Of a stretch of DNA of 64,000 bases, positions 15,570-64,000 are shown piece by piece (position 1 is the first letter of the stretch; the number at the start of each line of letters is the position of its first letter). A program made the translations under genes and the position numbers. The notes beneath the pieces were generated by a model. It was given only the letters and a program-made list of their open reading frames with translations. It was not told where the DNA came from and searched no databases. This stretch comes from Limnomonas spitsbergensis (taxonomy: Eukaryota; Chlorophyta; Chlorophyceae; Chlamydomonadales), in NCBI GenBank assembly GCA_037349105.1, contig JAYJMM010000032.1:1578501-1642500 (forward strand). Reading direction: 5' to 3'.

Positions 15570-16960
15570 GCAGGAGATTGCCATGCACCCTGCCCTGGGA
15601 GGCTTGGACCTCACTGGATTTTGTGTCCCCTGAACCCTAAACCCTCTTGCAGGAGATTGCCATGCATTCCTCCCTGGAAGGATTGGACCCTTAACCCTAA
15701 CCCTTAACCCTAACCCTTAAACAATAAACCCTATACCCTCTTGCAGGAGATTGCCATGCATCCTTCCCTGGAAGGATTGGACCTCAGCCACAACCCGTTT
15801 GGCACAGAGAGTGGGGACGAGGGCATGGCCAGCATAGCTGAGGACTTGAAGGTGAACAGTGTGAAATTCTGTCGTTCAAATTACTCCAGCTTCACGCCTT
15901 CCTTGCATTTAACTCCTTGCGGTGACGAGGGCACAGCCTGCATATCCAAAGACTTGGAAATCGGTTACTGTAATGTTTTCTACATACGCATTAGTGGATT
16001 GAAAGGTAAATATAAAACTACGCCCCGCAGGGACTTGAACGTTGAGGGAACGGTGCGGCATCTCTGGGCCGAGGCCGCTTTTGCACTGTCACCATAACAC
16101 GCCTTTAAAGCCTGGCCAGCATAGCTGAGGACTTTGATTTCACTGCCTCCTGCATGCGTGCCATAACTCGTCTTTGCACCCAACTCATTTTGCCATGCAG
16201 GCACAGCCAGCATAGCCGAGGACTTGGCAGGTCAATGCACCTAGTCTGTCTGACTGCCTGGTCCTCAACCCTGCTAATCCAGCCAACCCTCATTTTGAGG
16301 CCATGCAGACATAGCCAGCTTAGCCGAGGACTTGGCAGGTCAATGCACCTAGTCTGTCTGACTGCCTGGTCCTCAACCCTGCTAATCCAGCCAACCCTCA
16401 CTTTGAGGCCACGAGGGCATAGCCAGCTTAGCCGAGGAATTAAAGGAGTAAAACTACGCTCCCTAGCGGTGTGCGGGTTAAGGGAACAGCGCAGCATGGG
16501 GCCGAAGCCACATCTGCACCTTAAACATAGCATAGCCGAGGACTTGAAAGTGGTTGCAGGTCATCTACCCTGGCCTGTCTGACTGCCGGAGACTGACCCC
16601 TGAGAACTCAGCTATCGCTCGGGTTGTGTTCACCAGCTCAGCCACTGTCATGCCCCCCGGGCCTGTCTGACCGTCAGATCCTAAACCATGTTTACATACC
16701 GGCAATAGTATTCCCGGGTTGCGATCACCAGGGCTAATAGCCAGCATAGACAGGAGCTTGGAGTGTATTGCTCCCGGCATGTCTGACTACCTGCATCTAA
16801 CCCTGTTAATCCAGCAAGCGATAGGGGTGCAGCCACCTAGTTTAGGGTTTAGGGTTTAGGGCCCTAAACCCTAAACCCTAAACCCTAAACCCTACACCCT
16901 AAACCCACCAAAGCATGGCCTGCATAGCTGAGGACTGGGAAGGTCACTGCTTCCAGCATA
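15570..16960 (+). pseudogene. Decayed leucine-rich-repeat (RNI-like) gene fragment
   Basis: The motif GDEGxASIAEDL is typical of ribonuclease-inhibitor-like LRRs (LDLSxNxxGdeGaxalAexL). The best block is 15747-15862, preceded by a good acceptor (CTCTTGCAG) and encoding EIAMHPSLEGLDLSHNPFG followed by GDEGMASIAEDLKVN. Further remnants of the same motif lie at about 15922, 16105, 16197, 16305, 16410, 16525 and 16913, the middle ones about 105 bp apart, with stops and frame changes between them. The acceptor plus exon start (TTGCAGGAGATTGCCATGCA) occurs three times, at about 15570, 15651 and 15745. No intact gene can be assembled. Functional LRR proteins of this type act in protein binding, but this copy looks dead or is an exon cluster of a gene I cannot delimit. 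Confidence 0.6.
16840..16907. repeat. Head-to-head telomere-type repeat junction
   Basis: Three TTTAGGG units (16840-16861) run directly into about six CCCTAAA units (16862-16907, one variant CCCTACA), with the symmetric junction TTTAGGG|CCCTAAA. Plant-type telomeres end in TTTAGGG, so this is the arrangement expected from end-to-end fusion of two telomeres, or from insertion of telomeric DNA during break repair. It lies in the tail of the decayed LRR region. Confidence 0.9.
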
Positions 16961-25689: not shown

Positions 25690-26436
25690 ACAAAAATGGC
25701 CTAAGCCTACCTCTAGCAACCGAATGCCCCCCTCCTACCCGCTTCCCTTAGGCCCACTTTTGCAAATCAAATGCATCCACCCCCTTCCCTAAACTGGCCT
25801 GAGCCTACCTCTAGCAACCGAATGCCCCCCTCCTACCTGCTCCCCTTAGGCCCGCCTTTGCGAATAAAATGCGCCCCCCCCCCTTCCATAAACTGGCCTG
25901 AGCTTACCTCTAGCAACCGAATGCCCCCCTCCTACCTGCTCCCCTTAGACCCGCCTTTGCGAATCAAATGCGCCCCCCCCCCCCTTCCCTAAACTGGCCT
26001 GAGCCTACCTCTAGCAACCGAATGCCCCCCTCCTACCTGCTCCCCTAAGACCCGCCTTTGCAAATGAAATGCGCCCCCCCCCTTCCCTAAACTGGTCTGA
26101 GCCTACCTCTAGCAACCGAATGCCCCCCTCCTACCTGCTCCCCTTAGGCCCGCCTTTGCGAATCAAATGCGTCCCCCCCCCCCTTGCATAAACTGGCCTG
26201 AGCTTACCTCTAGCAACCGAATGCCCCCCTCCTACCTGATACCCTGAGGCCCGCCTTTGCGAATCAAATGTGTCCCCCCCCCTTCCCTAAACTGGCCTGA
26301 GCCTACCTCTAGCAACCGAATGCCCCCCTCCTACCTACTCCCCTTAGACCCGCCTTTGCGAATCAAATGCGTCCCCCCCCCCTTTCCTAAACTGGCCTGA
26401 GCCTACCTCTGGCAACCGAATGCCCCCCTCCTACGG
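25690..26436 (-). repeat. Inverted copy of the 100-bp satellite, ~7.5 units
   Basis: Reverse complement of the satellite at 1-12199. The plus strand reads CCTTCCCTAAACTGGCCTGA, GCCTACCTCTAGCAACCGAA, TGCCCCCCTCCTACCTGCTC, CGCCTTTGCGAATCAAATGC, with C-tracts of 6-12. Unit subtypes match those of the left array (TACCTGATACCCTGAGG is the complement of the GGTATCAGG subtype). It ends mid-unit at about 26436. The two arrays face each other across about 13.5 kb. Confidence 0.95.
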
Positions 26437-37317: not shown

Positions 37318-40300
37318 ATGCCAATCCTTTACTCTGCCGTGTTCCGGGGGGTGGTAAACATTGCCGAATTTAGCACCATACCAGGAAACTTTAATGCTGT
37401 TGCGAATGAGTATTTGACCAAGGCCAGTCGGAACGATGGCAAGTACACATACGTTGTAGGGGGAACCACGTTCAACTTCTCCACCAAGGACGGAACAAGT
37501 GAGTAAATTAGGATGCAGCGTTTAAGGCTGACCTTGGCCGCGAGACTGGTCAACCATAATTGTCTATCAGTCTGCAATACCTCGTGGGTCCTCTCCCGCA
37601 AGGATTACCTATCTCCTACCCTGAACATTCGGCGCATGTCAAAGACCTGTAGACATTTCAAACTTTTATGCTCCACCCTGTCAGAATCTTGTAGGATTCG
37701 CCATGCATCTAAGCCCATCCCATGCACGACCAAACAACCACATGGCATCACATTGTTGCGCACATGGGCTGCTGTAAAGACTCGTATGCATCCACCCATT
37801 ATCCTTTTTGAAAGGACCAGGCAGTGCACGCTGGAAGAACAGGGAAATTCACATGGGTCACTCGCCAACCATGCAAACACGCGTGGTGTCATGTGCAAGC
37901 TACCATGCACTCAATGTGTCCCGCGTGAAAGAATAAACTAACGTCAATTTGAGGCAAATAGTGCAGCATGGGTCGAGGCCTGGCCATGACCATCAGACGC
38001 ATGGATCATGCAAATCAAGCGACGGCAGGTCCCTTGTGTCTCTTCTGACGCAAACACATCTAACACTAACGCTGCTCTTGACACAACTGCACCACCCTCC
38101 TGGCAGCGTTCCTGTGTGTTGCCGATGAAGCCTACGGCCGCATCCTGCCGGCAGAGTTCCTGGATAAACTGGCCGCTGACTTTGCTGCGGAGGTGGGGGA
38201 CAAGCTGCCCAAGGAGGGCGTGCGGGAAGGGCAGCTCACCGCCACATACACGTGAGTGGGGGTCTGAGGGAAGGGCAGCTCAACTCCATGTACATCTGAG
38301 TGGTAGTAAGACCGGGTGCTTCCTCTTTTTTACAAGGGGGTGGGTGTCAGGGTTCAGCCCTGCTCCTTAGGGACAGGAGGTGCGGCTTGGGTTCAGCCCA
38401 GTGCTTATTTGTAGCGGGCGGCAATTTATCTTCTGCGGGCCGCTGGGTGGCCATTGCTGGGGCGATGGGGACCAAGCCGTGATCGGCCTGCGGCTGGGGG
38501 CCCGAACAGCAGGGCTTGCTGCACCAGGTTCACCCGGCTGTAGGCTATGATGTAGCTGGACTGTAGCTGAAGGGCGCACAAATAAACACTGGCTTAGCCC
38601 TCTCCTTAAAAGCCGGGGCCAATGCGAGCAAATCTTGGTCTCCTTTAAGGCTGCAAGGCCTAGAAGGGGATAAATCTGGTAACCTAAAGCAGCAGGGCTT
38701 GTTGCACCAGCACCAGGCCCCACAGGCTGTAGGCTGTGAGGTAGCTGGAGTGCAGTTTAAGCGCACAAGGCGGTGGTTTCGGCATGAAACCTGGCGTTTG
38801 GTCACGGCACTGTTAGCCCAGTGTTGCTTTAATGCATCTTATGATTGCCTGAGCTGCATACGGCATGATGGGTATGAAGCTTAAAACAGGATACTGAACT
38901 TGCTACCTCAGGCCACGTTTGAGTTGTGGCATGTCAGTGGGCACTAGCTGGTATACCGGTACTTTCATAGTAAATGGAGGAGACAAAATATACATAGGGA
39001 TATACAGGTAGGGATATACAGGTAGGGGGTATTTTCTCGGTCTTTTCAGGCTTTGATATCTTCCGATTATCATAAAATTGATTTGTTGAGTTAACAGCCA
39101 GCTGCCTGCGTCTGTTCATGCATGAAGCACGACCTGCTCTGTATACCGGTACTTTCATAGTAAATAAGCTACTGGAGGATTAGCACCTATGGTACCGGTA
39201 CTTTCAGTGTGGTATACATTTGTTTATTTCAGGAGACTCGTATTATTGGTCAACGCGTAAGTCTGAACTCCATACATACATTACCTCTGCTTCGAATTGG
39301 CCATGTTGGCTATCATGCCCTCTCTTATCTGAAGAGGCTTTTGGAAGGATGCACTGACGGCGCCAAAAAATCCGATTGCCTGTGGCGTCTGCAGCAAGCA
39401 AAACTGTGACAAAATCTGATTGCCTGTGATTTTGCTGTAGCAAGCGCATCAAGCACTTGGTGGACCAGATCACGGCAAGCCCGGAGAACTTCTCCAAGAT
39501 CACGGCGGTACAAAACAAGGTGGGTTTAGGGTTTTGGCAGAGCTGGGGAAAGTGGGTGAGCTTTGCTTAAGGCTCATGAAGTAATGATGCAAACACTCGT
39601 TCTACAATGGTGACGGTAGACCGGTAGAAGTGTATTCTGTAAACCGAGAAGCTTGACAATTCATGGGATGTAAGGTCTTCAATAAATAAATGTTACACAG
39701 ATCACTGAAACAAGCGCTTATCCTGCAGTACTAGATGTTCCGCATGGTGCAAGTGCAATACAAGTACATAACAGCAGCAGCATTTTTTATGACAGCAACA
39801 GGATCAGGCGACAAGAACTTACGTTGCACACAGGTTTCTCCTCCCTGTCCATGACAGGATTCATGTGGCTGACACTTTTGAACAGCATCAGCAATATGCA
39901 GCAAAAGCAAGAACATTGTATGCCTGATGCATGCCTGATGCATGCCTGATGCATGCCTGATGCATGCCTGATGCATGCCTGATGCATGCCTGATGCATGC
40001 CTGATGTATGCCTGATGCATGCCTGATGTATGCCTGATGCATGCCTGATGCATGCCTGATGCATGCCTGATGTATGCCTGATGCATGCCTGATGCATGCC
40101 TGATGCATGCCTGATGTATGCCTGATGCATGCCTGATGTATGCCTGATGCATGCCTGATGCATGCCTGATGCATGCCTGATGTATGCCTGATGCATGCCT
40201 GATGCATGCCTGATGCATGCCTGATGTATGCCTGATGCATGCCTGATGCATGCCTGATGCATGCCTGATGCATGCCTGATGCATGCCTGATGTATGCCTG

Positions 40301-46058: not shown

Positions 46059-46958
46059 ATGAGCGGCGAGAAAGAAGGGGGTGGAGACCTGACAATCGTT
46101 GAAACGACAGTGCATGACCTCCCTGCAGACCTGCTTGGGAACATTCTCATCCGCGCGGGCAAATGGAAGGCAGCTGGGACAAGCCTGGCCGCCTGGAACG
46201 TGTGCAGAGAGTGGCGTGAGTGCTTGCGCGCCAGCCCATCTCGTCTAGGTGACCTCTTGATCACGGTCCATAGCACCGAGGAGGCACTCCTGCATGCCGT
46301 CGGATGCAGCAGCCGTGCAGTGGACACGTGTGCACTCGTGAGGCATATTTTGGTCCATGGGAGGGCGGACTGCCAGGATGGATGCTCTCTTATTCGTGCT
46401 GCTTCTCATGGCAACGAAGCCCTGGTCCGGATGCTTCTTGAGTGGCCTCATCATGCGCCTCGTCCAGACTGCCAGGACGGTGAGGCGTTGTGCAATGCAG
46501 CTCTGAATGGCTGCGAGGCATTGGTGCGTATGCTTCTTGAGTGGCCAGAACATGCGCCCCATGCTGACTGCCAGGATGGTCAAGCACTGTGCAATGCTGC
46601 TTTGTGTGGCCACGAGGCAGTAGTGCGTATGCTTCTGGACTGGCCAGAGCATGCGCCTCGAGCAGATAGCCGACGTGGAGTTGAAGTGTGTCTAGCAGCT
46701 ACGGGTGGCCATGAGGCAGTAGTGCGATTACTTCTGGAGCGGCCCGAGCATGCACCCCGTGCAGACTGCATGAATGGCCAGGCATTGTGTCGAGCAGCTC
46801 AGAATGGCCATGAGGCTGTGGTGCGCATGCTTCTGAACTGGCCAGTGCATGCGCCTCGTGCGGACTGTATGGGCGGAAAGGCGTTCAGCCGAGCTGCTGC
46901 CCATCCTGTTGTGTTACAACTGCTTCAGAGCCATGCGGATGCTCATCCTCACAAATGA
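46059..46958 (+). CDS. F-box-like / ankyrin-repeat protein (299 aa)
   Basis: Single-exon open frame. Residues about 18-60 look like an F-box: LPADLLGNILIRAG, a variable segment, then AWNVCREWRECL. F-boxes link a protein to SCF ubiquitin ligases. From about residue 105 there are five to six ankyrin-type repeats of 34 residues, e.g. DCQDGQALCNAALCGHEAVV followed by RMLLDWPEHAPRA. They carry the usual Ala-Ala/Gly-His-Glu helix-turn features in a diverged form. Ankyrin repeats bind proteins, so an adaptor that brings a target to a ligase is plausible but inferred. The repeats are similar to one another, indicating recent internal amplification. The frame starts at an ATG preceded by AT-rich sequence and ends before a stop; no intron is needed. 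Confidence 0.82.
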   Translation: MSGEKEGGGDLTIVETTVHDLPADLLGNILIRAGKWKAAGTSLAAWNVCREWRECLRASPSRLGDLLITVHSTEEALLHAVGCSSRAVDTCALVRHILVHGRADCQDGCSLIRAASHGNEALVRMLLEWPHHAPRPDCQDGEALCNAALNGCEALVRMLLEWPEHAPHADCQDGQALCNAALCGHEAVVRMLLDWPEHAPRADSRRGVEVCLAATGGHEAVVRLLLERPEHAPRADCMNGQALCRAAQNGHEAVVRMLLNWPVHAPRADCMGGKAFSRAAAHPVVLQLLQSHADAHPHK

Positions 46959-48892: not shown

Positions 48893-51800
48893 ATGGAAGC
48901 ATTGGTGGACCCCCGGCCCGAGATCCGGCCTTGGGAGACCACCGCGCTCAAGACGTGGCGCAGGGCCAGCGTCATCGCGTTCAACCATGCGAGATACGTC
49001 GTGTCCCTCATGGAGGATTTCCTCAGCCTTGGAGGTACGTCTCGCATGCTGGACATGCCTGCCTCCTCCAGTGAATGGGGCTGTCCCATGCGGGCCATGC
49101 GACCCATGCGACCCATGCCTACCTCAACGCATGGTGCAGTCGCAGACATACCATGCACCCATGCCTACCTTCACTTACGCATGGTGCTGTCACGATATGC
49201 TAGGCAACCATGACTCCTTGCCCCAACACAAAGTGCTGTCGCAAACATGCCATGCACCCATGTCTCTGTCCCCAAGACCCCAACACATGGTGCTGTCACA
49301 GACATGACATGCACCCATGCCTCCCTTCCCTCACCGCAGGGTTCTGTCACAGGCATGGAATGAACCCATGCACCCTTGCTTAACGGGTGGTGCTGTCACA
49401 GCCTCAAAGGCATTCCATGCACCCAAGTGTCATGGGAGGGAGGCATGGGTGCATGGTATGCTATGCCCCCCCTGTCAGTGCAAGGCCAGCATGCTCTTGT
49501 TGTTTGCGCTGCAGAATGCGCCATGTCCCCTTACAAACACGTGTGGCTTTCACTTTCAAGGCGTGCCTCCCTCCCCCATCGCATGGTTCAGTCACGTAGA
49601 GGGCATGCCGCACAGCCCAGCATCTCATCATGCACTCCATATCCTTCATCCCCTGTCAAAACATGGTTGACATTTCAGTGGACCATGCGGCATGGATTGC
49701 CATCTTTTTGGCACTGTCCGGCGAAGGGTCAGTAGGGTAAATGGCATACTTGTTAACGAGTCAGGGGGAAGATCATATCCGTCCTGGAAACGTTATGCTC
49801 ATGTTATAAAGCCAAGGCAACCATGCGTACTTGCAGGATTTAGCGAAGCAGGCACATTTATCGACGGCGACCGCCTTCTCCACCTTGGTCCTTGGACTCA
49901 ATGCATGGAACACTCAACCTAATGCATGGAACACTCAATGCAAAAAAGTGAGAGGTTGAAGCGATTCTCTCCCACTTTTTTCCTCCCCTTTCTCTCTCAC
50001 CCTTCCAACCTCTCTTACTCAACCAACCCTGTCTAACTCTTTCCATCCTTTCTAACTCTTCTTACACTTTCTCACTCTCCAATGCCTTTCTCACGCAACC
50101 AAGCGCGTCCCATAGCCCCCCCCACTCTTCACCTACTGAGCGCCCCATGCCTTGAAGATGCCTCCATTTGGACCTTGGTTTTCCTTCGTCATTGAACGCC
50201 CTGCTCACTCCTCCCTACTTCTTCAACCCTGGACATCCTCCTCCTCCTTCCTTTTCTTCATGAACCTCCACCTCTCCCCACTGCCCCCTCTGCAAACCTC
50301 CTCCTCCCTCCTGCCCAATCCCGTGCCCCCCCCCCCCCCTTCTTCCTTCTTCGTATTCCTTTCCGAACCTTCCTCCTCCTCCCTCCACTTCCTCTCTCCT
50401 CCCTCCCCCCTTCTTCTTTCACCTCTTCCCCCCCCTCCCTTCCTTCTTCCACCTCTTCATCCTCCCTCCTCCTTCCTTCTTCCTTCCTCCACCTCTACCT
50501 CCTTCACCTCTCTCCTCAGGTCCCGATGCCATTAAAAGCCTTCGTAAGACCATCAGCCGCATGGAGGGGTCCTTGAAGGAGCTCAGAGACTGTGCCAAGC
50601 TTAAACGCTACACTGCCCTGCAGAAGCAGTTACAGGTGAAGCGGCTTACAGGCACAATTTGCGCGGTCAGCTTTGTTGGATGCTGCTGATTTATTTGAAG
50701 TATCGGTGCGGCAGCACGGCGATACCGATAGTTTTCAGATTGACACTTACTAACATCCATGTTGTGTTAATGCAGTCTTTCCCTCATATTCACCTGCCAG
50801 CCTCCATGGTGCCATGCAGAATGCATGGCAAACCCTTCAGACTTTCCACCCAATCTACCCTTTCTAACCTTCCAACCTGTCCACCTCTTGACCCTGTTGC
50901 ACACCTCATCACCCTCCTTCTGCACCCGCTGACCATAGGAGGCTGACCGCGTGCGCTCGGCCCTCATCAGCATGCTGACTCAGAGCTTTGGCGTCGATGA
51001 GTCAGCGCTCCAGCAGCTGCTCAAGGATGCATCACTCAAAGGGGCGGAAGGGGACCGGCTGTACGGTGCCTCCCGGTGGGTTAGGGTTTAGGGTTTAGGG
51101 TATGCTTACAGGGGCTAAATAACACATTCAAACACGACATCAGAGAGACGAGAGAAGAAGATACATGAGTCTAATGTTCCATGAGCAATCCATTATTTCA
51201 CAAGCCATGCACGACTGTGGGGGAGCTGGCCTGGAGGGCTGTGTGCTGCATGGCTCATGGGGAGAGCTGGAGAGGGATGAGGTGGCCCAGAGGTCTAGGT
51301 GACTGGGCGGACCCATGTTTGCAACATTCGTTCAGGGTTTTAGGGTTTAGGGTTTAGGGCCCAGAGGTCTAGGTGGCTGGGCGGACCCATGTTTGCAACA
51401 TTCGTTCAGGATTTTAGGGTTTAGGGTTTAGGGCCCAGAGGTCTAGGTGGCTGTGTGGACCCAGGTTTGCACCACATGCATTCCCAGGGGACACAAGGTT
51501 TTGGCTTGTCCCACCTGCGATAGGCAGTACGGTACATCAAGGCGTGTGCTGCACCGCTGTTAGAGACGTGTCGGACCATGCAATCCATGGACACCATCTC
51601 ATAAAGACCCAACACACAATATTATTCAATCCTTGGACACATCTCATAAAGACCCAACACACAATATTATTCAGTTGTTGGTTATGTATGGCTCTGTTCA
51701 TATCCTGCTGGGCCTTTTGTACGCTTTCAGGGAGATGCTGCTGATAGAGAATCGGGCCTTGCGTTCCCAGCTGGAGCAGCACCTTGTAACAGATAAAACA

Positions 51801-54800
51801 GCTTGGAGCAAGACGGGACAGGCGGGCAGCGCAAGAGCAGGAGCGGGAGCAGGTGCCAGCGGTGGGGGGTATGCACCAGGTGAGAGATTCGCACGGACAC
51901 CGGGTGAGAAATTCAAATTTCAAGTCCAGATTGAGAGAGAGGTGGGCCCGGCGGCAGTTACACTCCACTGGCACCGGGTGAGAGATTCAAATTTCAATTC
52001 CAGATTGAGGAAGACGTGGGTCATGCAGCAGTTACACTCCACTGGCACCGGTTGAGAGATCAAAATTTTAATTCCAGATTGAGAGAGGGGTGGGCCAGGC
52101 GGCAGTTACACTCCACTGGCACCGGGTGAGAGATCAAAATTTCAATTCCAGATTGAGAGAGGGGTGGGCCAGGCGGCAGTTACGCTCCACAGGCACCGAG
52201 TGAGAGATCCAGATTTCGATTCCAGATCGAGAGAGGGGTGGGCCAGGCGGCAGTTACGCCCCTCGGGAATCGGGTGAGAGATTCAAATTTCACTGTTACG
52301 ATGAGAGGGGAGTGGGCTGGGCGGCAGTTACACTCCACAGGCACAGAGTTAGATATTCCACTGTCAACTTCAGATTGAGGGGGCAAGCGGCCTTTAATAA
52401 CGCCCCACCGACAGTTGGTGAGATATTCAAATTTAAATATCACATTGAACGTGTGCGGGCATGGCGAAAGTTATGCCCCACGGACACCGAGTTAGATAAT
52501 CAATGTCACTCTCAGCTCGAGGGGGTTATTACTTACACCCTACTCACAGATGGTGAGGTGATTACATTTAAATTCCAGATTGAGGCGGGGGTGGACAAGG
52601 CGGAGGTTATGCCCCCTGGGCACGGGGTAAGAGATTCAAATGTCAGCTTCAGGTTGAGGCGGTAAGCGACCAATAATTACGCCCACTGACAGTTGGTGAG
52701 AGATTCAAAGTGTGAACTGAGAGGAGGGTGGGCCAGGGGCGGTTACGCCCCATTGGCACTGGATGGCAGATTCGATTTTTGTTTCGGATTGCGTGAGAGT
52801 GAAGGAAACAGCGCAGCCAGTGAGTGCAGAACAGGTCTTACGAGGGGGCCTGCATCCAAAGCGTGTCAGGGTTAGCACCGATGCTACCAGGGTTCATTAT
52901 TCACCGTTTGAGCCTCTTGATTGCATGTGTTGATGAAGGACCACCAACGGATTGTGCGATGCATGTTCCCATCTTGAACATATTTAGTCTGCCTACCCCA
53001 GTTCACACATCTGCCACACCTCCTAGCTGCCTCGTGCCCCCCCGCACACATTCCACACATCTCTCATGTGCCTTACCACGTCCATACGTTTTCACAAACC
53101 CTAGGTACCTCTCCTGACCTCTCAAGCTCCAAGGACCAGAACGGCTTGGGCCTGCCTGGCCCCCTGGTCAACTTAAAAGTGGGGAACAGCAGAATGGAGC
53201 GGGCAAGGCTCATGGCAGGCCCACAGGTGAATAGCAGCTGTTGTCATGGCAGGCCCACATGTGAATAACGGCTGTTGTCATGGCAGGCCCATGTGTGAGT
53301 AACAGCTGTTGCCATGGCAGGCCCACAGGTGAGTAACAGCTGTTGTCATGGCAGGCCCATATGTGAGTAACAGCTGTTGTCAAGGCAGGCCCACAGGGGA
53401 GTAACAGCTGTTGTCATGGCAGGCCCACAGGTGAATAACAGCTGTTGCCATGGCAGGCCCATATGCGAGTAACAGCTGTTGTCATGGCAGGCCCACATAT
53501 GAGTAACAGCTGTTGTCATGGCAGGCCCATATGTGAGTAACAGCTGTTGTCATGGCAGGCCCATATGCGAGTAACAGCTGGTGTCATGGCAGGCCCACAT
53601 GTGAGTAACAGCTGTTGTCATGGCAGGCCCATATGTGAGTATCAGCTGTTGTCATGGCAGGCCCACATGTGAGTAACAGCTGTTGTCATGGCAGGCCCAT
53701 ATGCGAGTAACAGCTGTTGTCATGGCAGGCCCACATGCGAGTAACAGCTGTTGTCATGGCAGGCCCATATGTGAGTATCAGCTGTTGTCATGGCAGGCCC
53801 ATATGCGAGTAACAGCTGTTGTCATGGCAGGCCCATAGGTGAGTATCAGCTGTTGTCATGGCAGGCCTACAGGTGAGTAACAGCTGTTGTCATGGCAGGC
53901 CCATATGTGAGTATCAGCTGTTGTCATGGCAGGCCCATATACGAGTAACAGCTGTTGTCATGGCAGGCCCATAGGTGAGTATCAGCTGTTGTCATGGCAG
54001 GCCTACAGGTGAGTAACAGCTGTTGTCATGGCAGGCCCATAGGTGAGTATCAGCTGTTGTCATGGCAGGCCTACAGGTGAGTAACAGCTGTTGTCATGGC
54101 AGGCCCATATGCGAGTAACAGCTGTTGTCATGGCAGGCCCACAGGTGAGTATCAGCTGTTGTCATGGCAGGCCCATAGGTGAGTATCAGCTGTTGTCATG
54201 GCAGGCCCATAGGTGAGTATCAGCTGTTGTCATGGCAGGCCCCCAGGTAAGTAACAGCTGTTGTCATTGTTACATAGTTGACGCAACCACCCACAGCCTT
54301 TAAATCATTCACAGTGACACTGAGTATCAGTCAAAGAGGGCCCTTGGCCCCATCCTGCCCTTGGCCCCATCCTGCCCTTGGCCCCATCCTGCCCTTGGCC
54401 CCACCCTGCCCTTGGCCCCATCCTGCCCTTGGCCCCATCCTGCCCTTGGCCCCACCCTGCCCTTGGCCCCACCCTGCCCTTGGCCCCATCCTGCCCTTGG
54501 CCCCACCCTGCCGTTGGCCCCATCCTGCCCTTGGCCCCACCTTGCCCTTGGCCCCACCCTGCCCTTGGCCCCATCCTGCCCTTGGCCCCACCCTGCCCTT
54601 GGCCCCACCCTGCCCTTGGCCCCACCCTGCCCTTGGCCCCACCCTGCCCTTGAACCCACCCTGCTCTAAGCCCTAGGCCCCACACTGCAGTACCATTGAC
54701 CTTTGTTCACACCTCGCAGGTGGAGGCCTTAGAGCAGCTGTCAGCAGCCATGGAGCTTCTAAGGGATGCAGAGCGGGACTACCGCCTGCCCCTCGTTCGT

Positions 54801-57800
54801 AATGCTGCGGTACAGGTGGGGCTATTGTCTTCTCACATACATTTGTATACGTGAGAAGGTCACCCTGAAAGGGCATCCTTTCAGGGTGAACTTGCAATGC
54901 TAGCACACTTCTGGCACTGTTCCATTCTTCTTATCTCTTGTAGTCGTGTTTCTACCTGGTTCACACTGCCTCACCCTATCGAACGCCGCCATTGGGCATG
55001 ATTAGATGCCTCATCTAGCGTAAGGAGGAAAATAGTGCTAGGTCACCCTCGGGGTGAGAGCAGATGAGATGAGGTGTCTTTATCAACTTGGCAGGTTCCT
55101 TGTGCCGTGTGCTGAGCCATGCATCCTTACTTCCAATATGATGGATATCTAGACTTAAACTAGCAGTGTCACCCCCCCACCACACTACACCACACTTCCC
55201 CAGTCCGCTACCACACACCTCCCCCACCACACTACCCAACACTTCCCATGTCCACTGCCCCACATTTCCCCACCACACTATCACACACTTCCCAGGTCCT
55301 CCACCACACACTTCCCAGGTCCACTGCCACCTCCCCCACCACACTACCCCACACTTCCCAGGTCGACTATCCCACACTTCCCAGGTCCACTGCCACCTCC
55401 CCCACCACACAACCCCACACTTCCCCAGTCCGCCACCACACAGACACACACCACGCTACCCCACACTTCCCCGGTACATTGCCACCTCCCCCACCACACT
55501 ATTCCACACTTCCCTGGTCCGCTACCACCTCCCCCCTTGCCTCCCCCCTCCCTGTCATGTCCCCAGTAGGCTGATGATGGCTCTCTCAAGACCATCAAGC
55601 TGCTCAACGGCCAGGTCACAGAGCTGGCCAGCCAAAAGGGTAACCTACTGTCCAAGGTAAGTGATGAAAGAGTGGCATGATGTCCATGGTGAGAATGTCA
55701 GTGTGACCTGGCGTCCATGTTAAAACGTGGGCTCCGAAATGTGCCAGGGTCATGCGGTGACAGTCTCTCCCTCAAAAATAAAAGCCGTGCCTCAGAGAGT
55801 GGGTTGGACCCTACTGTAAGTATGAGGACAAGTGTGGTCATCCTATGATGGCAGGGGAACCCCACACATCTCCTCAAACTTGCAATATCTTCCTCTGGCA
55901 CATACCGAAACCCTTCACCCTAAATCCCTCAACCCTCAAGCCATCTCTCCACACTTGCATTATCTTCCTTTGGCACACACCTTCACCCTAAACCCTAAAA
56001 CCCTTTACCCTCTATACGTCGGATGTTTCCTGCTAATTGCACCTGACGCATGGAGTGCTCTGCCGTCTGCCTCCGCCCTCTGTCTGCCCCTCTGCTATTC
56101 TTTTAATGTGCCCATGTTGCCGCAAAGTGTAAATATTGTGTTCAATGGTTGAACATCCTCAATCTGTGCATGCATTGATTTTTCTTCTCACCTAGTAATG
56201 CTGCAGCAACGTTTCAACATTAGCGTATGATATACGGATTGAACCTCCTGATCCTCGAATAACTAGTTTCTCTTAGGCAGCCATGTTGCAGCAATATGGT
56301 TTATGATTTCCTGTTCGACGTCCCAGCCCGTAGCCTTCCCAGGTCCGGCCGTGTCACAGCAAGATTTAGTCGAATGCTGGAACCTCCATTTGCACAACGT
56401 TTTCTTTTTCTTCTCAGGCGGCCATGTTGCAGCAGCATTTCTTACATTTTGTTTACAATTTGCAGAAACAACCTCCCAACCTGTAAACCCCTTTTCCCTC
56501 CCAGGTGGCCATGCTGCAGCAAGATCTAGTGCTGCTTGAGAAGCGGTTGGAGCTGGCCCTGAATGAAGTGGCGGAGGAGAGGCGACAGAGGGTGGATATG
56601 CTGGCACACAGGGTAAGTGGGGGGGGCGGGGGGGGGGGCGGTGAATGGCATCCAATCATGTGACAGACACATGCTCTTATACATGGCATGAGAGAATCCA
56701 TGTGCCAGGCTTATGCTGTCATGCATGGCATCCTCACATGTTTTCTCAAGCGATCAAACCCAATGCAATCCTTCTTTTGCATGGCGATCCATCCCCATGC
56801 AGTCCTGTGCTGCGGTAGCATGCACCTTACGCGACGTAGCCATGTCATGCCTAGCCATGCAAAACCTCACCATGCACGGCCTAGCCATGCAAAAACTCAC
56901 CATACACAGCCTAGCCATGCAAGACGTCACCATGCACGGCCTAGCCATGCAAAACCTCACCATGCACGGCCTAGCTATGCAAAACCTCACCATGCACGGC
57001 CTAGCCATGCAAGACATCACCATGCACGGCCTAGTCATGCAAAACATCACCATGCATGGCCTAGCCATGCAAAACCTCACCATGCACGGCCTAGCCATGC
57101 AAGACATCATTATGCACGGCCTAGCCATGCAACACATCACCATGCAGATCCCAGCACGACCCCATGCCTTCCCCCTGTGTTCAGGGGGAGCTGTCCAAGG
57201 AGCTGCGTGCCACCCTGGAGTCTGAAAACAAACGTGCAGATGCCGCTGAGCTGGCACTGCATGGATCCCACATCAAGGGAGAGCGACAGGTGAGGGGCCA
57301 CGTTTCGGTCACCCAATGCTGGTGTTTATAATATTTATTTGTATATACTAAATATTATAAAAGCGGGACCCAAAACCCGACCAGCAGTGACTGCATCATC
57401 TGATCCTGCAACTGCACGTTTAACTCCTCAGCCTTTCCTTTTTTCTCTCTTCTGGATTCTTCCCACCTGTCACCAGATCCGTGCCTGTCAAGGCCCTCGG
57501 ATCCGGAATCTTTAGAGGTGGAGCTAGAACCAGATCCGCCACCCCTATCGCCAGCCCCTGAGGGATGGGGACCTGAGGAGGACTGGGGCCGTGGTTTTAC
57601 CGTATGTTTGGGTGGTGCTTAAAAAGGGAAATGATAATAAGACAATTCGAATAACTTAGGGAAATGCATGTGGTCTTAATCGGGCATTTGGCAATTGCCG
57701 AGCTGCCTGACAAATGCAGATTCATAGCCGTAAAAATAAACACTGCTCATACGACCATGCTGATAGAGCTTTAATGGGGTCATGTATGCAACGTCAGGCT

Positions 57801-60800
57801 AATCCTTAAAGTATACCAGATATTGGTCTTTGCTAAGGCTGGAAGATGCTTTGCAGTACATTTCGTGTCGAATTCAACAGCTTAGATTGCCTAGGTAGGG
57901 TTGTGAGTCTCCAGGGCTGAGTGGCAGCCCAAGCACCGAATGTACCTAATGGTGCATATTGTTATCCTGTTTGCACCACCTGTCAATCGCCTGGCATTTT
58001 CATGAGAGGCTGGTCTGGATGGATGAAACGAGGTGACCTTGTAGCAGCTGCCCAACAGATCCAATGTCCCAGCTCAAGACAATGCGGTGAATGACCCTAG
58101 GATGACATGCTGCGCTGGTCACTGAACTCTCACGTCAAAGGGAAAGTATTTGTTCTGTTTCGGGGGTATTCTGCTTCGGGGAATTTCTGTTACGGCTATG
58201 TACCCTAAACCCTAAACCGTAAACCCTAAACCCATCCTCAGGGGGACCAGAGCTTACAATGTGTTAAACCCACACCCTCAATTCAGTTTCAAAATTTGAA
58301 TTTTGTCATTAAAAACCCCTCTCTGCAGGGTGCTGAGCTGGCAATGCATAGCTGTAACCCTTGTCCCCAACCCCCTCTCTGCAGGATGCTGAGCTGGCAA
58401 TGCATAGCTGTAACCCTTGTCCCCAACCCCCTCTCTGCAGGATGCTGAGCTGGCAATGCATAGCTGTAACCCTTGTCCCTAACCCCCTCTCTGCAGGGTG
58501 CTGAGCTGGCAATGCATAGCTGTAACCCTTGTCCCCAACCCCCTCTCTGCACGATGCTGAGCTGGCAATGCATAGCTGTAACCCTTGTCCCCAACCCCCT
58601 CTCTGCAGGATGCTGAGCTGGCAATGCATAGCTGTAACCCTTGTCTCCAACCCCCTCTCTGCAGGATGCTGAGCTGGCAATGCATAGCTGTAACCCTTGT
58701 CCCCAACCCCCTCTCTGCAGGATGCTGAGCTGGCAATGCATAGCTGTAACCCTTGCCCCCAACCCCCTATCTGCAGGATGCTGAGCTGGCGATGCAGCGT
58801 GAGAAGCTGGGTGAGGCTTCCGTGCAGCTGGCGGCCCTTGAGGCTGCACTGCAAGAGAAGATGGACCAGGTGGGGTGACACCAGGGCTTAGGGTACACGT
58901 ATGAGGGGCAGGGTGCAGGTGTTAGGGTTAACGGCTACGGTGAAAGCTTCAGTGTAGCTGGTCGGTTGATGGTCCAGAAGGCTGCACTGCAGGAGGTGAT
59001 GGACCAAATAGGGTGGGACCAGGGTATAGGGTGTACCTTTCAGTGCTCATGGCTACGGTTTGGGCGCTGGTGCAGCTAGCGGTCCTGGAGACGGCAGAGT
59101 CCATGCAGGAGACGGCAAATGGCAGATAGCCCTGTAGGAGATAGTTGCTCAGGTGTTTTCAGAGGTCGGGTATACGTCCCTGGTGAATGCTGTAGGCGAC
59201 TGAGTTAGTAAGGTACTAAGGTGATTGTACTTCAGGCAGCTGAGGTAGGGTATACGCCCCTGGTGAATGCTGTAGGCGACTGAGTTAGTGAGGTACTAAG
59301 GCGATTGTACTTCAGGCAGCTGAGGTAGGGTATACGATGCAGGTGAATGCTGGGCATGCCAAGTTCCTTCTGAGCCGGGACCCTATCCATGGCCTGGATA
59401 GCCTACATTACTCGGCCCATGCTACCCTCCTACCTTGGCATGACGCTTAAGGCTTAGGGCTTGATCCTCAATGTCATCAACTTTTCCTCGCATCCCAATC
59501 CCGTCATGCTGTGGTGCCCGCCCTCACAACCTCTGTCCTCCACCCCAAACCTAGTTACCCACCCTAAACCCTGGTATGCTATGTTACCCTCCCTAAACCC
59601 TAAATCCTAGTATGCTATGTACCCACCCTTGGCCCCACCCCCCTCCTGCCACTCGCCATTGTCGCAGCTTGAGGACCTGCGTGAGCTATATCGAGAACTG
59701 CATGCCCAGGTGAGGGGAGTGACGCTGAATATAACTGATTGTATATGAAGCTGGATGAGTCCAGCTGATTCTGGTTGGTCGGATGTGGCTGAAGCTGCTG
59801 GTTTAATGTAGCTGAATAAGAGTGTTGGATGAACCTTGAATCATATGCATATTGTAGCTGAAGCTGTTGCTTTGATGTAGCTGAATTGGAGTGTTGGATG
59901 CACCAGTACCTGCTGTTTGAATGAAGCTGAATCTGTTGCTTGATGTAGCTGAAGCTGTTGCTTTGATGTAGCTGAATTGGAGTGTTGGATGCACCAGTAC
60001 CTACTGTTTGAATGAAGCTTAATCTGTTGCTTGATGTAGCTGAATGCTGGATGATTGTGGCTGAATATTCATATGTGTTGTTGAATCCGGCTGGCTTTTG
60101 TCTTTGCTTCTTTCCAAAGCCATCATTTTTTTCTTCTTATGACGGTAAATGGTAGGAAAGACTTGACTGACGCTACTTTTGACCACTTGGTGAACCTGGG
60201 TGGCTAAGTCTGACCATGGTTGCACATAGCCCTCGATCCTCCCTCTCCCCGCATTCCCCTCTCCCCTTCCCCCCCCCCTCCCCCCCTCATTCCATAAGCT
60301 TGAGCGACTTGGTGAGCTTCAAATGAGACCCCTTAAAACTATAACCCTAAACTCTCAGTCAGTCTGAGGGAATACCCCTCAGCCCTTCACCCTCTCCCCT
60401 CTTCACCCCCTCTTCCCTACCCTTCCTACCCTACCCTCCTCCTCCCCTCAGCTTGAGCGGCTGAGTGTGTTCCATGAGAACAACAACCAGGAGATCATCA
60501 AGGCCATCGCTGAACATCACTCAAAGCAGGCGGATGCCATGCAAGGTGAGGCCAGGCAATAATGCAAAATACGGACAGAAGAGGTGCAGATTACCATGCA
60601 AGATATGTCCAGGACATGCCATGCCAGGTTCAGCCAAACAAAGCCATGAAGGGTACGGCCATGCCATCCCATGCAAGATATGGACAGGCCATGCCATGCA
60701 AGATATGGCCAGGACATGCCATGCAAGATACAGACATGCCATGCCATGCAAGATTTGGCCAGGACATGCCATGCAAGATATGGCCAGGACATGCCATGCA

Positions 60801-63800
60801 AGATCCTGACAGGCCATGCCATGCAAGATACAGACATGCCATGCCATGCAAGATATGGCCAGGACATGCCATGCACGATACAGACAGGCCATGCCATGCA
60901 AGATCCTGACAGGCCATGCCATGCAAGATACAGACAGGCCATGCCATGCAAGATATGGACAGGCCACGCCATGCAAGATACAGACAGGCCATGCCATGCA
61001 AGATATGGACAGGCCATGCCATGCAAAGTACGGACAGGACATGCCATGCAAGATATGGCCAGGACATGCCATGCACGATACAGACAGGCCATGCCATGCA
61101 AGATCCTGACAGGCCATGCCATGCAAGATACAGACAGGCCATGCCATGCAAGATATGTACAGGCCATGCCATGCAAGATACAGACAGGCCATGCCATGCA
61201 AGATATGGACAGGCCATGCCATGCAAAGTACGGACAGGATATGCCATGCTAGATATGGACAGATATACACACATCTTGAACCCTGGACCCTCAGCTCTCG
61301 ACCCTGCGTGTATAACCAAAATGCTGCATTGCGGAAACCTCTCAATTCTAACCGTAACGGCTGTAACTCCCGGACCATTGTAACTCCCAGACCAGTGTAA
61401 CTCCTGTTGATATGTGTAACTCCTTGCCCCTCTCAGGTACCCTGACGGCTGCCTCTGAGGCCAGGAGTGCGGCGCAGGAAGGGGCCAGGCTGGCGGCGGC
61501 TGTTGCGGACCTTCAGAGGAAGCTGCAGCTGGAGGTGGATGAGGGGGGGGGGGTAGAGGGGAAATAGGGAGCCTTAAACCCTACACCTTGACCCTAGCTA
61601 TCCTAAGCTAGGTATCAGATATGGTATCTTGCATCCTAAGAACGTGTACTGTCATTTCAGGTCTCTTCCCTTCAGCTGCGTTGCCTTGATTGAGTCAGAC
61701 CTGCTGGCCTTTTTCTCGCTACCTTGAACCGTAACACTTCATTTTTCCAGGTCTCCTCTCAAAAGTCCACCGCTGAGTCAGCTCTGCTGGCCCTGGAGGG
61801 GGAGCTGAAGTACACACACTCAGCACTACAGGTAGGTACGGGACAGGGCTCAACCCTAGATACTTAATTAGGGTTCCACCCCCTCCTGCTATCTCTTTGG
61901 TTCCCACAACAGCATTCACACTTTACCCGCTATTCCCACTTCACATAACACATGGCTATCACGGCATTCACACTTTTCCTACTACCCGGTATCTGTATTC
62001 TTCTTTTGCTTGGACTTGAGAAAGTATGAGGCCGGCTGCCCAAGCCTAGAAAACTTGAAACACTAACACAAAGAAACAGCCTGGGTGCGCTTGTGGTCCT
62101 CGTCGACAGCCGAGTAAAGGTACTCTTACTTTCCATTAAGAACACTATTCACGCTAACATATTCACACTGTTCCCACTTTCCATTTGTTCCTTCACTCCC
62201 CCCTGTATTCATACTATTCATACTTTTCACACTATCGGTATTGACACTGTTCCAGGGAGCGGAGCTGGAGCGTAAGCTGGAGGCTAGGAAGACCGCGGCG
62301 GCCCTCATGCTCTCGAGAATGGAGGTGAGCTCAAACGGGTTACGGGTTTAGGGTTTAGCCCTCATGCTCTCATGCTCTCGAGAATGGAGGTGAGCTCTAA
62401 CGGGGAGAGAGAGGGAGGTGTGGAGGCGGGGTCAATGAGGGGTTTAGGGAGGAGGTGAAACTCCAGTGCCTCCCTGTTAAGAGAAATACTTAATTAGGGT
62501 ACGAAAATGCTGAAATAGTTGAGTTTCAGGGCAGATTCTACAAATGGTTTGCTCTAGCACTTACCGCTGTCCACTATCTCATACGCGGACCTGCGTGATG
62601 GATGCAGTGTACAGCTGGGTTTTATAAGTGTGTCCCTTTCCAAACACAGGCTGTCCCCATACCCTGTCCCTCCACACTTCCCGCTCCCTCCACACTTCCC
62701 CCCCAGGATCGTCATCATGACCATATCCTCAAGGCCCTGACCTCAGACATGGCCGCTGCATTGGCCACCTCCCTGCCCCTCCACACTTCCCACTCCCTCC
62801 ACACTTCCTCCCAGGATCGTCATCATGGCCGTACCCTTAAGGCCCTGGCCTGAGACATGCCCCAAATGGCTGCCTCCCTGTCCCTTCACACTTTCCCATC
62901 CCTTCACACTTCTCACTCCCTCCGCACTTCCTCCCAGGACCGTCATTATGAACGTACCCTCAAAGCCCTGGCCTCAGACATGCCCGCTGCATTGGCTGCC
63001 TCCCTGGCCGGCCAACTGGGGGGCATCAGGAGCCAGGTGGATGGCATCAGTGAGGAGGTGGCGCTGGCCAACCGACAGATCAGCTACGTAGCAGAAGGTG
63101 GGAGGAGTGTGGAGGGCAGGGGGGGTATGAAACGGCAGGCTCTAATGCGAGCTCCGAAATCTGAATCCCTGGTTTCTGATCTTGAACTTCACACTGAACT
63201 CGCCTTTCAGGCGGGTCTGGACAGAAGGCTGCCTCCGTGATGCCGGATCTAGGTGACGACCAATCCTCAAACCTCATATTGAGCAGCCAAGGCCTCCGTG
63301 CTAAGCTGCACGCCATGGTGCTGGTAGATCCGGTGAGTGGATCTGCTGGTTGGGTCATGGTGCTGGTAGATCCGGTGGGTGGATCTGCTGGGAGAGTCAT
63401 GGGATTGATATATCCGGCGAGTGGATCTTCTGGATGGATCATGGTAGTGGTATATCCGGTGGTACCTCTGCTTGTTTGTAATCCACTAATTGAGTTCCCT
63501 TGCAGCTGCCACCCCACTCCTTTCCCCACCCCGCCTGCGCACTGGCCCACCAGCCTGCCCACCTAACAACCTAACCACCTGACCACCTACCAGCCCAACC
63601 CTCCTGCCTGCCCACCTAACCACATAACCACCTGACCACCTGACCACCTGGTGGCCCAACCTTCCGGCCCAACCACCTAACCACCTGACCACCTGACCAC
63701 CCGCCGAACCAACCCTCCTGCCCGACCACCTAACCACCTCACCACCTGACCACCTGCCGGCCCAACCCTCCTGCCCTCCCACCTGCCCACCTAACCACCT

Positions 63801-64000
63801 GACCACCTGCCGACCCAACCCTCCTGCCCTCCCACCGGACCACCCAGGTTCCGAAGCCCCCTCGTGCGACAAGCCCCCTGGCCCATGAGGGCGGGGCGGC
63901 AGGAGCAGTGGTCGTGCGGGACAGCACCCTGCCCTCCAGCACGCCCCCAGACGTCCTGGATCCCACACTCCAGGTGGGACCGGTCATGCTTATCACACAC
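48893..64000 (+). CDS. Long coiled-coil protein gene, 18 exons seen, 3' incomplete
   Basis: Exons: 48893-49034, 50520-50635, 50939-51075, 51731-51879, 53105-53226, 54720-54815, 55570-55656, 56505-56612, 57185-57289, 58777-58869, 59668-59709, 60452-60545, 61437-61534, 61751-61831, 62256-62324, 62938-63097, 63211-63332, 63848-63973; then a donor (CAG|GTGGGA) leads out of the window. All phases join, giving 649 codons so far. The N-terminus (MEALVDPRPEIRPWETTALK on) is helical and unfamiliar. A Gly/Ala/Ser linker encoded in exon 4 follows. From exon 6 to 16 the sequence is rich in Leu/Glu/Gln/Lys heptads (e.g. MLQQDLVLLEKRLELALNEV, then AEERRQRVDML), a long coiled coil. Exons 17-18 turn Ser/Pro-rich. 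It is probably a structural, cytoskeletal or tethering protein, but I do not recognise a family. Many exons sit next to tandem copies of their own edges, so choice of splice site is uncertain at exons 5, 10, 16 and 17. Confidence 0.85.
49080..49450 (+). repeat. ~60-bp minisatellite in intron 1
   Basis: Imperfect units with CGCATGGTGCTGTCACAGAC and ATGCCATGCACCCATGCCT. Intron 1 of the coiled-coil gene (49035-50519). The intron ends in a strongly pyrimidine-rich tract (about 50165-50519). Confidence 0.75.
51283..51450 (+). repeat. ~75-bp tandem repeat ending in TTTAGGG runs (intron 3)
   Basis: Units beginning GCCCAGAGGTCTAGGTGGCT at about 51283, 51359 and 51432, each of the first two ending in GTTCAGGRTTTTAGGGTTTA. 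A plant-telomere tract is therefore part of the amplified unit. A further TTTAGGG run lies at 51084-51101. Confidence 0.85.
51870..52745 (+). repeat. ~75-bp repeats copying the exon 4 donor (intron 4)
   Basis: The end of exon 4 and its donor (TATGCACCAG|GTGAGAGATTC) are echoed about ten times as GGCACCGG|GTGAGAGATTCAA or GGTGAGATATTCAAA, within ~75-bp units that also hold ATTCCAGATTGAGAGAGGGG and TGGGCCAGGCGGCAGTTACR. The ladder fills most of the first 870 bp of intron 4. Later units lose the GT or GG. Confidence 0.82.
53205..54265 (+). repeat. 34-bp repeats copying the exon 5 donor, 31 positions (intron 5)
   Basis: Exon 5 ends ATGGCAGGCCCACAG|GTGAAT at 53226. From there a unit of exactly 34 bp repeats, with donor positions at 53227 + 34n for n = 0 to 30, the last being CCCAG|GTAAGT at 54247. 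Most copies read GGCAGGCCCAYAKGTGAGTA followed by ACAGCTGTTGTCAT. Many are good donors (CAG|GTGAGT); others (TATGTGAGT, TATGCGAGT) are weaker. Confidence 0.95.
54340..54668 (+). repeat. 17-bp minisatellite, TTGGCCCCATCCTGCCC (intron 5)
   Basis: About 19 units of TTGGCCCCAYCCTGCCC in the same intron as the 34-bp donor ladder, just before exon 6. The long Pro/Leu/Trp and Gly/Gln frames across it are by-products. Confidence 0.93.
55175..55548 (+). repeat. CCACACTTCCCAGGTCC-type repeats (intron 6)
   Basis: Imperfect C/A/T-rich units (CACCACACTACCCCACACTT, CCCAGGTCCACTGCCACCTC) within intron 6 of the coiled-coil gene. Each CTTCCCAG is acceptor-like, but the following sequence does not match exon 7. 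Confidence 0.8.
56185..56530 (+). repeat. Four tandem copies of the exon 8 acceptor and start (intron 7)
   Basis: The true exon 8 starts CTCCCAG|GTGGCCATGCTGCAGCAAGA at 56505. Decayed copies precede it: CTAGTAATGCTGCAGCAACG (about 56194), CTTAGGCAGCCATGTTGCAG (about 56273) and TCTCAGGCGGCCATGTTGCAG (about 56415). Two of the copies keep an AG acceptor. Confidence 0.8.
56865..57150 (+). repeat. 30-bp minisatellite, intron 8
   Basis: About nine units of CCTAGCCATGCAAAACCTCA plus CCATGCACGG in intron 8 (56613-57184) of the coiled-coil gene. Rich in CATGCA words, as are the intron 1 and intron 12 repeats. Confidence 0.92.
57290..58315. other. Left part of intron 9, nothing assigned
   Basis: No exon was found that joins in phase. 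A segment around 57480-57590 is locally codon-like (repeated GATCCG words) but has a stop and no matching donor. A CCCTAAA run lies at about 58202-58232. Confidence 0.4.
58323..58782 (+). repeat. 56-bp repeats copying the exon 10 acceptor, 9 positions (intron 9)
   Basis: CTCTCTGCAG|GATGCTGAGCTGGCAATGCA recurs at an exact 56-bp spacing: CTGCAG at 58323, 58379, 58435, 58491, 58547 (mutated to CTGCAC), 58603, 58659, 58715 and 58771. The last is the true acceptor; there the copy continues into full exon 10. Each upstream copy has a pyrimidine tract (CCAACCCCCTCTCTGCAG), so eight of nine look usable. Confidence 0.95.
58930..59135 (+). pseudogene. Two decayed copies of exon 10 in intron 10
   Basis: 58935-59025 resembles exon 10 plus donor (GTGTAGCTGG..., AGGCTGCACTGCAGGAGGTG, ATGGACCAAATAGGGTGGGA versus ATGGACCAG|GTGGGGTGA). 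A weaker copy is at 59055-59130 (GGTGCAGCTAGCGGTCCTGG). Neither stays open in frame. With the acceptor ladder upstream, exon 10 has been copied on both sides. Confidence 0.7.
59168..59345 (+). repeat. ~81-bp tandem duplication, intron 10
   Basis: Units with GGGTATACGYCCCTGGTGAA, TGCTGTAGGCGACTGAGTTA and GATTGTACTTCAGGCAGCTG, two full copies and part of a third. Just downstream of the decayed exon 10 copies. Confidence 0.85.
59780..60060 (+). repeat. Imperfect GATGTAGCTGAA repeats, intron 11
   Basis: Repeats of TTGATGTAGCTGAAGCTGTTGC and AATTGGAGTGTTGGATGCAC, including a near-identical larger duplication (about 59877-59940 versus 59960-60020). Intron 11 of the coiled-coil gene. Confidence 0.8.
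60595..61258 (+). repeat. ~25-bp minisatellite, intron 12
   Basis: About 26 units of AGGCCATGCCATGCAAGATA plus YRGAC in intron 12 (60546-61436). The long Cys/His/Met-rich plus-strand and Trp/His/Leu-rich minus-strand frames are by-products. Confidence 0.95.
61661..61720 (+). pseudogene. Decayed upstream copy of exon 14
   Basis: TTTCAG|GTCTCTTCCCTTCAG ... TTGAGTCAGACCTGCTGGCC resembles exon 14 (TTCCAG|GTCTCCTCTCAAAAG ... GCTGAGTCAGCTCTGCTGGCC) 90 bp downstream. It has an in-frame TGA after ten codons and no donor. Confidence 0.7.
62006..62106 (+). repeat. Dispersed ~95-bp repeat, copy 2
   Basis: Same orientation and order of landmarks as 25148-25245 (TTGGACTT, AAAGTATGAGG, CCTAGAAAAC, GGGTGCGCTTGTGG, CCTCGTCG). 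Lies in intron 14 of the coiled-coil gene. Confidence 0.7.
62296..62400 (+). repeat. Duplication of exon 15 end plus donor
   Basis: CTCATGCTCTCGAGAATGGA then G|GTGAGCTC occurs at the end of exon 15 (donor at 62325) and again about 62 bp on (about 62366-62397), with TTTAGGGTTTAG between. Both donors are intact, so a longer exon 15 is possible. Confidence 0.85.
62707..62937 (+). pseudogene. Two upstream copies of the exon 16 start
   Basis: Acceptor plus exon start (CCCAG|GATCGTCATCATGACC; CCCAG|GATCGTCATCATGGCC) at 62707 and 62815 precede the full exon 16 (CCCAG|GACCGTCATTATGAAC at 62938). All three begin in the same phase and encode DRH-type starts followed by LKAL. The second copy meets a TGA after twelve codons and neither has a donor, so only the third gives an open exon. 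Confidence 0.85.
63315..63480 (+). repeat. 42-bp repeats copying the exon 17 donor, 4 positions (intron 17)
   Basis: Exon 17 ends ATGGTGCTGGTAGATCCG|GTGAGT (donor at 63333). Exact 42-bp copies follow with donor positions at 63375 (GTGGGT), 63417 (GCGAGT) and 63459 (GTGGTA). 42 is a multiple of three and the first copies are open, so use of the second donor would add 14 residues in frame. Confidence 0.92.
63545..63840 (+). repeat. CCACCTAACCACCTGACCAC-type repeat, intron 17
   Basis: Irregular units of ACCACCTGACCACCTGMCGG and CCCAACCCTCCTGCCCTCCC fill the intron up to the exon 18 acceptor (CACCCAG at 63847). Exon sequence is not included in the unit. Confidence 0.9.

Follow-up and report, generated by a model that had tools for sequence, protein, structure and literature searches.

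The question raised by this locus is why the introns of one gene should repeatedly carry tandem copies of their own exon–intron boundaries, and whether splice junctions are preferred starting points of duplication. The gene lies on the plus strand (48893..63973) of a 64 000-nucleotide stretch of Limnomonas spitsbergensis DNA, here called the window, from an assembly of 260 Mb in 124 contigs. It has 18 exons in the window, from the first at 48893-49034 to the last at 63848-63973, and a nineteenth past the window edge at 64203-64293; joined, the 19 exons give one stop-free frame of 638 codons, with GT and AG at the inner borders. Exons were placed by eye and with an exon finder trained on the same genome, which used a raised intron cost and splice profiles from family-anchored exons and replaced an unsupervised-retrained version that gave many tiny exons. 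Exon 4 ends at 51785 in the 638-codon frame and at 51879, nearer to the version of the initial annotation, in the copy and placement counts; under either end exons 4 and 5 have weak borders and their placement is uncertain. The predicted product reads as coiled-coil-like. It matched no Pfam family or solved structure, and a search that scored 7996 candidates found no homologue, so the gene model rests on sequence only.

Each junction was probed with a 30-mer (18 exon and 12 intron bases), and a copy was scored wherever the same intron contained a match of 21/30 or better. Nine of the 34 in-window junctions of the gene have such a copy, compared to an average of 0.00 in dinucleotide-shuffled introns (ten shuffles each). 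The initial annotation had listed donor copies in introns 4, 5, 15 and 17, acceptor copies in introns 7, 9 and 15, and decayed copies of exons 10 and 14, with exact spacings of 34, 42 and 56 bp. The copies in introns 5, 7, 9, 10, 15 and 17 were recovered and the three spacings are correct, whereas intron 4 has no donor copy at 21/30 and the exon 14 copy is unconvincing, its exon-only alignment spanning 19 nt with a score of 30 against 29 for shuffles.

The 34-bp array, seen both as a tandem array and with the 30-mer probe, extends from the end of exon 5 through intron 5 (53210..54267, plus strand, as are all features of this gene); its unit is the exon end with the donor, and the 12 copies listed match at 23-28 of 30. 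The unit of the 56-bp array in intron 9 (58316..58796; eight copies, 27-28 of 30) is the acceptor with the start of exon 10, and a 42-bp array running from the end of exon 17 into intron 17 (63314..63461) repeats exon end and donor (29/30 at 63375, 24/30 at 63417). Intron 10 repeats most of exon 10 and its donor in decayed form (58939..59019; donor at 59008, 22/30), and the exon-only alignment of this copy covers 59/93 nt with 49/68 identical (score 51, shuffle maximum 30). At the start of intron 15, the end of exon 15 and its donor are followed by a telomere-type run (62344-62358) and a second exon end and donor (62302..62404; copy at 62390, 29/30). The same intron contains two copies of the acceptor and exon 16 start (62695..62832; 22/30 at 62707 and 26/30 at 62815), and the exon alignment takes in half of exon 16 only (80/160 nt; score 103 against 32 for shuffles). 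The acceptor of exon 8 and the beginning of that exon are present in intron 7 as three decayed copies (56180..56435; 22, 21 and 24 of 30); the exon-only alignment is not significant (28 against 31 for shuffles), and this case therefore rests on the junction 30-mers. An addition to the earlier list is the exon 12 acceptor and start copied in intron 11 (60287..60316; 22/30 at 60299), and a 25-bp array in intron 12 (60594..61262) includes six weak donor-like copies at 21/30.

Two longin-type VAMP/synaptobrevin genes stand head to head elsewhere in the window (32285-36803, minus strand; 37385-41148, plus strand), and both match Pfam Longin and Synaptobrevin. Copies had been proposed at exons 2, 3 and 6 of the plus-strand gene. 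The exon 2 donor is indeed copied (38278..38307, plus strand, 22/30), but exon 3 gives 14/30 at best; the exon 4 donor reaches 20/30, below the threshold, 1/8 junctions pass, and a possible sixth exon lies at 41879. None of the eight junctions of the minus-strand gene has a copy with the same probe (at least 21/30). The acceptor of an LRR remnant was correctly described as copied: a telomere-type run (15633-15645) leads into a copy of the acceptor and exon start (15633..15676, plus strand) that is identical at 34/36 positions from 15641. The window also contains a 99-bp (198-bp) satellite, which occupies 1-12200, and an array resembling it in the opposite orientation at 25693-26434. A 1236-codon open frame with an 87-bp repeat array, of a kind possibly belonging to a mobile element, lies at 19263-22970 on the minus strand, and an open frame at 46038-46955 on the plus strand, which we read as ankyrin-like, has repeats that correspond at the nucleotide level to a tandem array of 99-bp units.

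The suggestion that duplication of this class keeps recurring is supported, as copies occur in all seven sets counted, although the minus-strand VAMP gene is without them. In total, 115/408 junctions have copies, mostly from four dynein genes (DHC2 23/104, DHC92 47/102, DHC34 15/54 and DHC119 7/26), with 13/80 in anchored kinesin and dynein introns and the remainder in the window gene and the plus-strand VAMP gene. DHC2 (contig C123) is a dynein heavy chain gene in one stop-free frame, and its best solved-structure match is chain DHC2 in 8glv (4922.6 bits), the source of which we take to be Chlamydomonas reinhardtii. Compared to 8glv over query residues 2 to ~955 of 2769, the largest departure (418-463) falls exactly at a splice junction and is a swallowed copy of the exon end in the read frame; in addition, two copies of an acceptor and ~60 bases of exon start precede the real acceptor. 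The dynein segments on contigs C92, C34 and C119 also read without stops and are known from these frames, the structure comparison being that of DHC2. In DHC119 (L059 673-3220) an exact-pattern search places the acceptor and start of the P-loop exon at 48 sites, most of them 48 bp from the next, in an array that stays for the most part in frame and stop-free. The organisms named among the ten best kinesin relatives are green algae (Tetraselmis, Trebouxia and Chlorella).

Duplication is dense in these introns, and junction copies are common because of this density. With copies sought within the same intron or nearby, 8620/26291 intron-interior 24-mers of DHC2 (33%) have a copy (20/24) within 300 nt, compared to 37/3684 24-mers deep in exons, a rarity that coding constraint predicts. 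A junction-spanning event was found in 44% of 200 introns, or 36% without DHC92. Tandem arrays with units of >10 bp, the hallmark of intronic minisatellites, lie inside introns, with a median period of 31.5 and 34 bp in two sets, and median intron length across sets is 372-991 bp.

Introns <100 bp and kinesin-locus introns >2500 bp were excluded before counting, and introns lying no more than 60 bases from the end of a segment were left out of the event tests described below. Overlapping loci were removed from the final counts; an earlier kinesin-locus set still included some, and they are still in part of the window-level enrichment, the Tandem Repeats Finder comparison, GT/AG retention, intron-end likeness and the first event test. 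Predicted exons taken for junction copies or for end artefacts were edited or removed. In DHC2 one exon end was moved from 5219 to 5078, exons 23413 and 24743 were removed, 23635 became 23619 and the exons after 36700 were left out; exon 22288-22320 and the last exon were removed from DHC92, and 534-569 and the last exon from DHC34; in DHC119 array exons were replaced by the last acceptor and the last exon was removed. Removed exons become intronic copies, which may have raised counts by a few. A group of 72 less supported introns (KINB) is in parts of the event test that followed overlap removal, in the 185-intron run count and in the flank-duplication test, and out of the 408-junction and 200-intron counts.

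The density of the duplications, the copies at borders and their near-random placement are observed, and the reading built on them we consider fairly probable: short tandem duplications strike introns often, with a mild excess at exon–intron borders at most, and many arise through break repair. Duplication across a border would do little harm, since the splice site next to the exon remains functional and the additional copy comes to lie within the intron; this exon-proximal site is presumably the one used. The border copy would then decay or grow into a minisatellite. Many duplications may start as staggered double-strand breaks that are filled in and rejoined, and at some breaks telomerase would add TTTAGGG before joining, leaving a copy, a telomere repeat and a copy.

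A possible, although doubtful, alternative is that splice junctions are true hot spots, with breaks or nicks favouring exon–intron borders, donors above all, for example through transcription-linked structures. Placement was assessed with an event test in which each duplication counts once, by its first copy on the donor side or its last copy on the acceptor side, and the expectation is taken from the frequency of such events in unduplicated intron sequence, base for base. Over six sets (200 introns), 102 junction-spanning events were found against 73.5 expected at 20/24 (ratio 1.39, intron bootstrap 1.16-1.67), and 74 against 51.6 at 22/24 (ratio 1.44, 1.14-1.76). This excess favours hot spots, as does its concentration at donors (59 against 36.2 at 20/24), whereas acceptors gave 43 against 37.3. 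An intron-only version, using intron bases and ten across the border, gave 39 against 22.6 in 174 introns (P = 0.001), and this excess together with a pooled ratio above 1 indicates that placement is not fully random. With overlapping loci still in, the test had yielded 47 against 37.4 at 20/24 (P = 0.07), with donors at 28 against 18.1 (P = 0.018).

The pooled excess comes mainly from one gene. DHC92 shows about a two-fold excess over its whole segment (48 against 30.0 at 19/24 and 33 against 15.1 at 22/24), and without it the ratio is 1.26 (0.96-1.56; 61 against 48.5) at 20/24 and 1.13 (0.83-1.50; 41 against 36.3) for strict copies at 22/24. DHC34 is intermediate (16 against 9.9 at 19/24, 10 against 6.0 at 22/24) and DHC119 has no excess (6 against 6.4 and 5 against 4.5 at the same thresholds). 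At 19, 20, 21 and 22 of 24 the window gene itself gave 9 against 6.9 (P = 0.26), 7 against 5.9, 5 against 5.2 and 5 against 4.8, and DHC2 with the anchored introns gave 38 against 32.4, 35 against 27.3, 29 against 23.4 and 21 against 20.1 (ratios of 1.05-1.28 and P of 0.09-0.45 after overlap removal). The strict counts for DHC2 with the anchored introns, DHC119 and the window gene thus argue against hot spots. So does exon conservation, which prolongs the detectability of junction copies: in a junction pair one partner lies in the exon and is conserved, whereas in an interior pair both partners decay, and some excess is therefore expected without any preference. Tandem Repeats Finder arrays overlapped junctions 5 times against 7.8 expected in DHC2, and 18 against 10.6 in the kinesin-locus set with overlapping loci in. 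A window-level enrichment, with ratios of ~1.1 to 2.5, was set aside as edge-biased; counting windows wholly inside an intron had an equally large excess, which makes it at least partly an edge effect. Random placement explains most junction copies. The initial proposal that junctions are preferred starting points was borne out weakly, and a mild gene-dependent preference, mainly at donors, is possible.

It is likewise conceivable, although we think it improbable, that plain minisatellite slippage alone produced the copies and that the telomere-type runs are neutral passengers in older arrays. Contig C1 starts with CCCTAAA repeats, which identifies TTTAGGG as the telomere repeat of the species; the runs consist of this motif, as in break-associated insertion. 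TTTAGGG runs of at least 13 nt number 21 in 185 introns, while none of 19 other heptamer classes with the same base composition has more than 1; 10-nt runs are less specific, the 19 other classes together giving 37 in 204 introns. Among introns with a 13-nt run, a direct duplication (at least 17/20) flanks the run in 19/38, against 9.7 from other positions in the same introns (P = 2e-5), and in later-fetched genes alone in 10/21 against 5.4 (P = 0.003), although it is absent in half of the run-bearing introns. Simple copy, run, copy structures were found at three splice junctions. Window intron 62325-62937 has a clean one at its donor; in DHC92 (gene strand), intron 9759-10496 has a clean donor copy with a run, and intron 18139-18556 an acceptor copy in which the run serves as the pyrimidine-rich tract of the predicted acceptor. 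Such single cases, together with flank duplication above same-intron controls in two separate sets, argue against slippage alone, whereas the several arrays that carry one run in each of several units are what it would predict. A 74-bp array in intron 3 of the window gene (51284..51471, plus strand), found by tandem-array and run searches, contains two telomere-type runs.

A run of at least 10 nt lies between the junction and the nearest copy in only 12/115 junction copies, and clustering of runs near junctions was not established, with ratios of 1.47 (0.82-3.11) for 10 nt and 2.22 (1.00-5.65) for 13 nt. Counting runs of at least 10 nt no more than 60 nt from a junction, in introns of at least 160 nt and all models, the ratio of TTTAGGG to CCCTAAA in sense was 11:4 for donors and 1:17 for acceptors; raising the minimum intron length to 300 nt and dropping the 72 less supported introns changed it to 5:4 and 0:10. 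Run polarity is therefore firm on the acceptor side only, where it would be accounted for by constraint on the acceptor tract. In the 163 introns of at least 300 nt as a whole, runs of at least 10 nt are mostly CCCTAAA in sense, 67 to 18. Within the reading of frequent, near-randomly placed duplication, we put forward only tentatively the broader idea that telomerase and a fill-in complex routinely patch breaks in genes, leaving scars of copy, TTTAGGG run and copy in which the copies take in splice junctions; these scars would seed minisatellites, sometimes supply an acceptor tract, and gradually shift and multiply borders, with breaks somewhat favoured at donors.

In the copies, the splice dinucleotides are preserved about as well as the neighbouring bases, or better. 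Identity is 0.88 for copied GT against 0.78 for the rest of the copy, and 0.81 for copied AG against 0.79 (copies of at least 20/30, some overlapping loci in); they are lost no faster than the surrounding bases, so decoy sites persist, and selection against decoy sites was not seen in this comparison. The retention of GT and the stop-free, in-frame exon-start array in a dynein gene could suggest that selection retains the extra copies as spares or as alternatives, but some spacings, 34 and 56 bp for instance, are not divisible by three and the copies decay, and we regard such selection as very unlikely.

Least credible of all is the link to intron gain drawn in the initial annotation, by which the duplications would be raw material or remains of tandem AGGT-segment duplication: AG|GT donor and CAG|G acceptor contexts are both strong in this genome, and a report on potato RdRp describes an intron born from a tandem duplication across an intron-exon border (PMC4974935), but the two flanks of an intron, at its donor and at its acceptor, agree on average at 19.2 of 60 positions against 19.3 for flanks taken from different introns, and none of the 173 introns exceeds the control (best 29, control maximum 32). 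The alga resembles the potato case in that a border-crossing duplication creates a second set of splice signals; it differs in that the copies lie inside existing introns, with no gained intron detected.

Frequent intronic duplication also has parallels in break repair. Telomere repeats are inserted at double-strand breaks, with a duplication, defined by empty sites, at 4.6% of the loci in rodents and 16% of those in primates (PMC2246262, Table 1). The runs described here are similarly short and some have a putative break-site duplication, although this was measured against the background within introns (19/38 against 9.7) rather than against empty sites. Fill-in by CST-Pol alpha at 3'-overhang breaks gives small tandem duplications (PMC8355091); in both systems fill-in followed by end joining would produce short direct duplications, and CST also acts at telomeres, but that work concerned induced breaks in cell culture, whereas the case of the alga is read from its DNA. 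The telomere-run scars may belong with the CST and telomerase repair routes. Relatives of Chlamydomonas share with these green-algal genes long introns, there of unexplained length (PMC8226300); medians are 198-343 bp in that study compared to 372-991 bp here, and the portion of its account available makes no mention of junction copies. Our literature search, whose coverage left out most subscription papers, found no green alga in which introns are described as commonly carrying copies of splice junctions.

In summary, if a border is duplicated in some four of every ten introns, the splicing machinery must reliably pick the exon-proximal site among intact decoys, and duplication drives intron length. 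A single genome would then be enough to test how sites are chosen in the presence of decoys, how introns grow and what imprint break repair leaves on genes. Confirmation of the telomere-run scars would link the birth of minisatellites to an already known route of repair.
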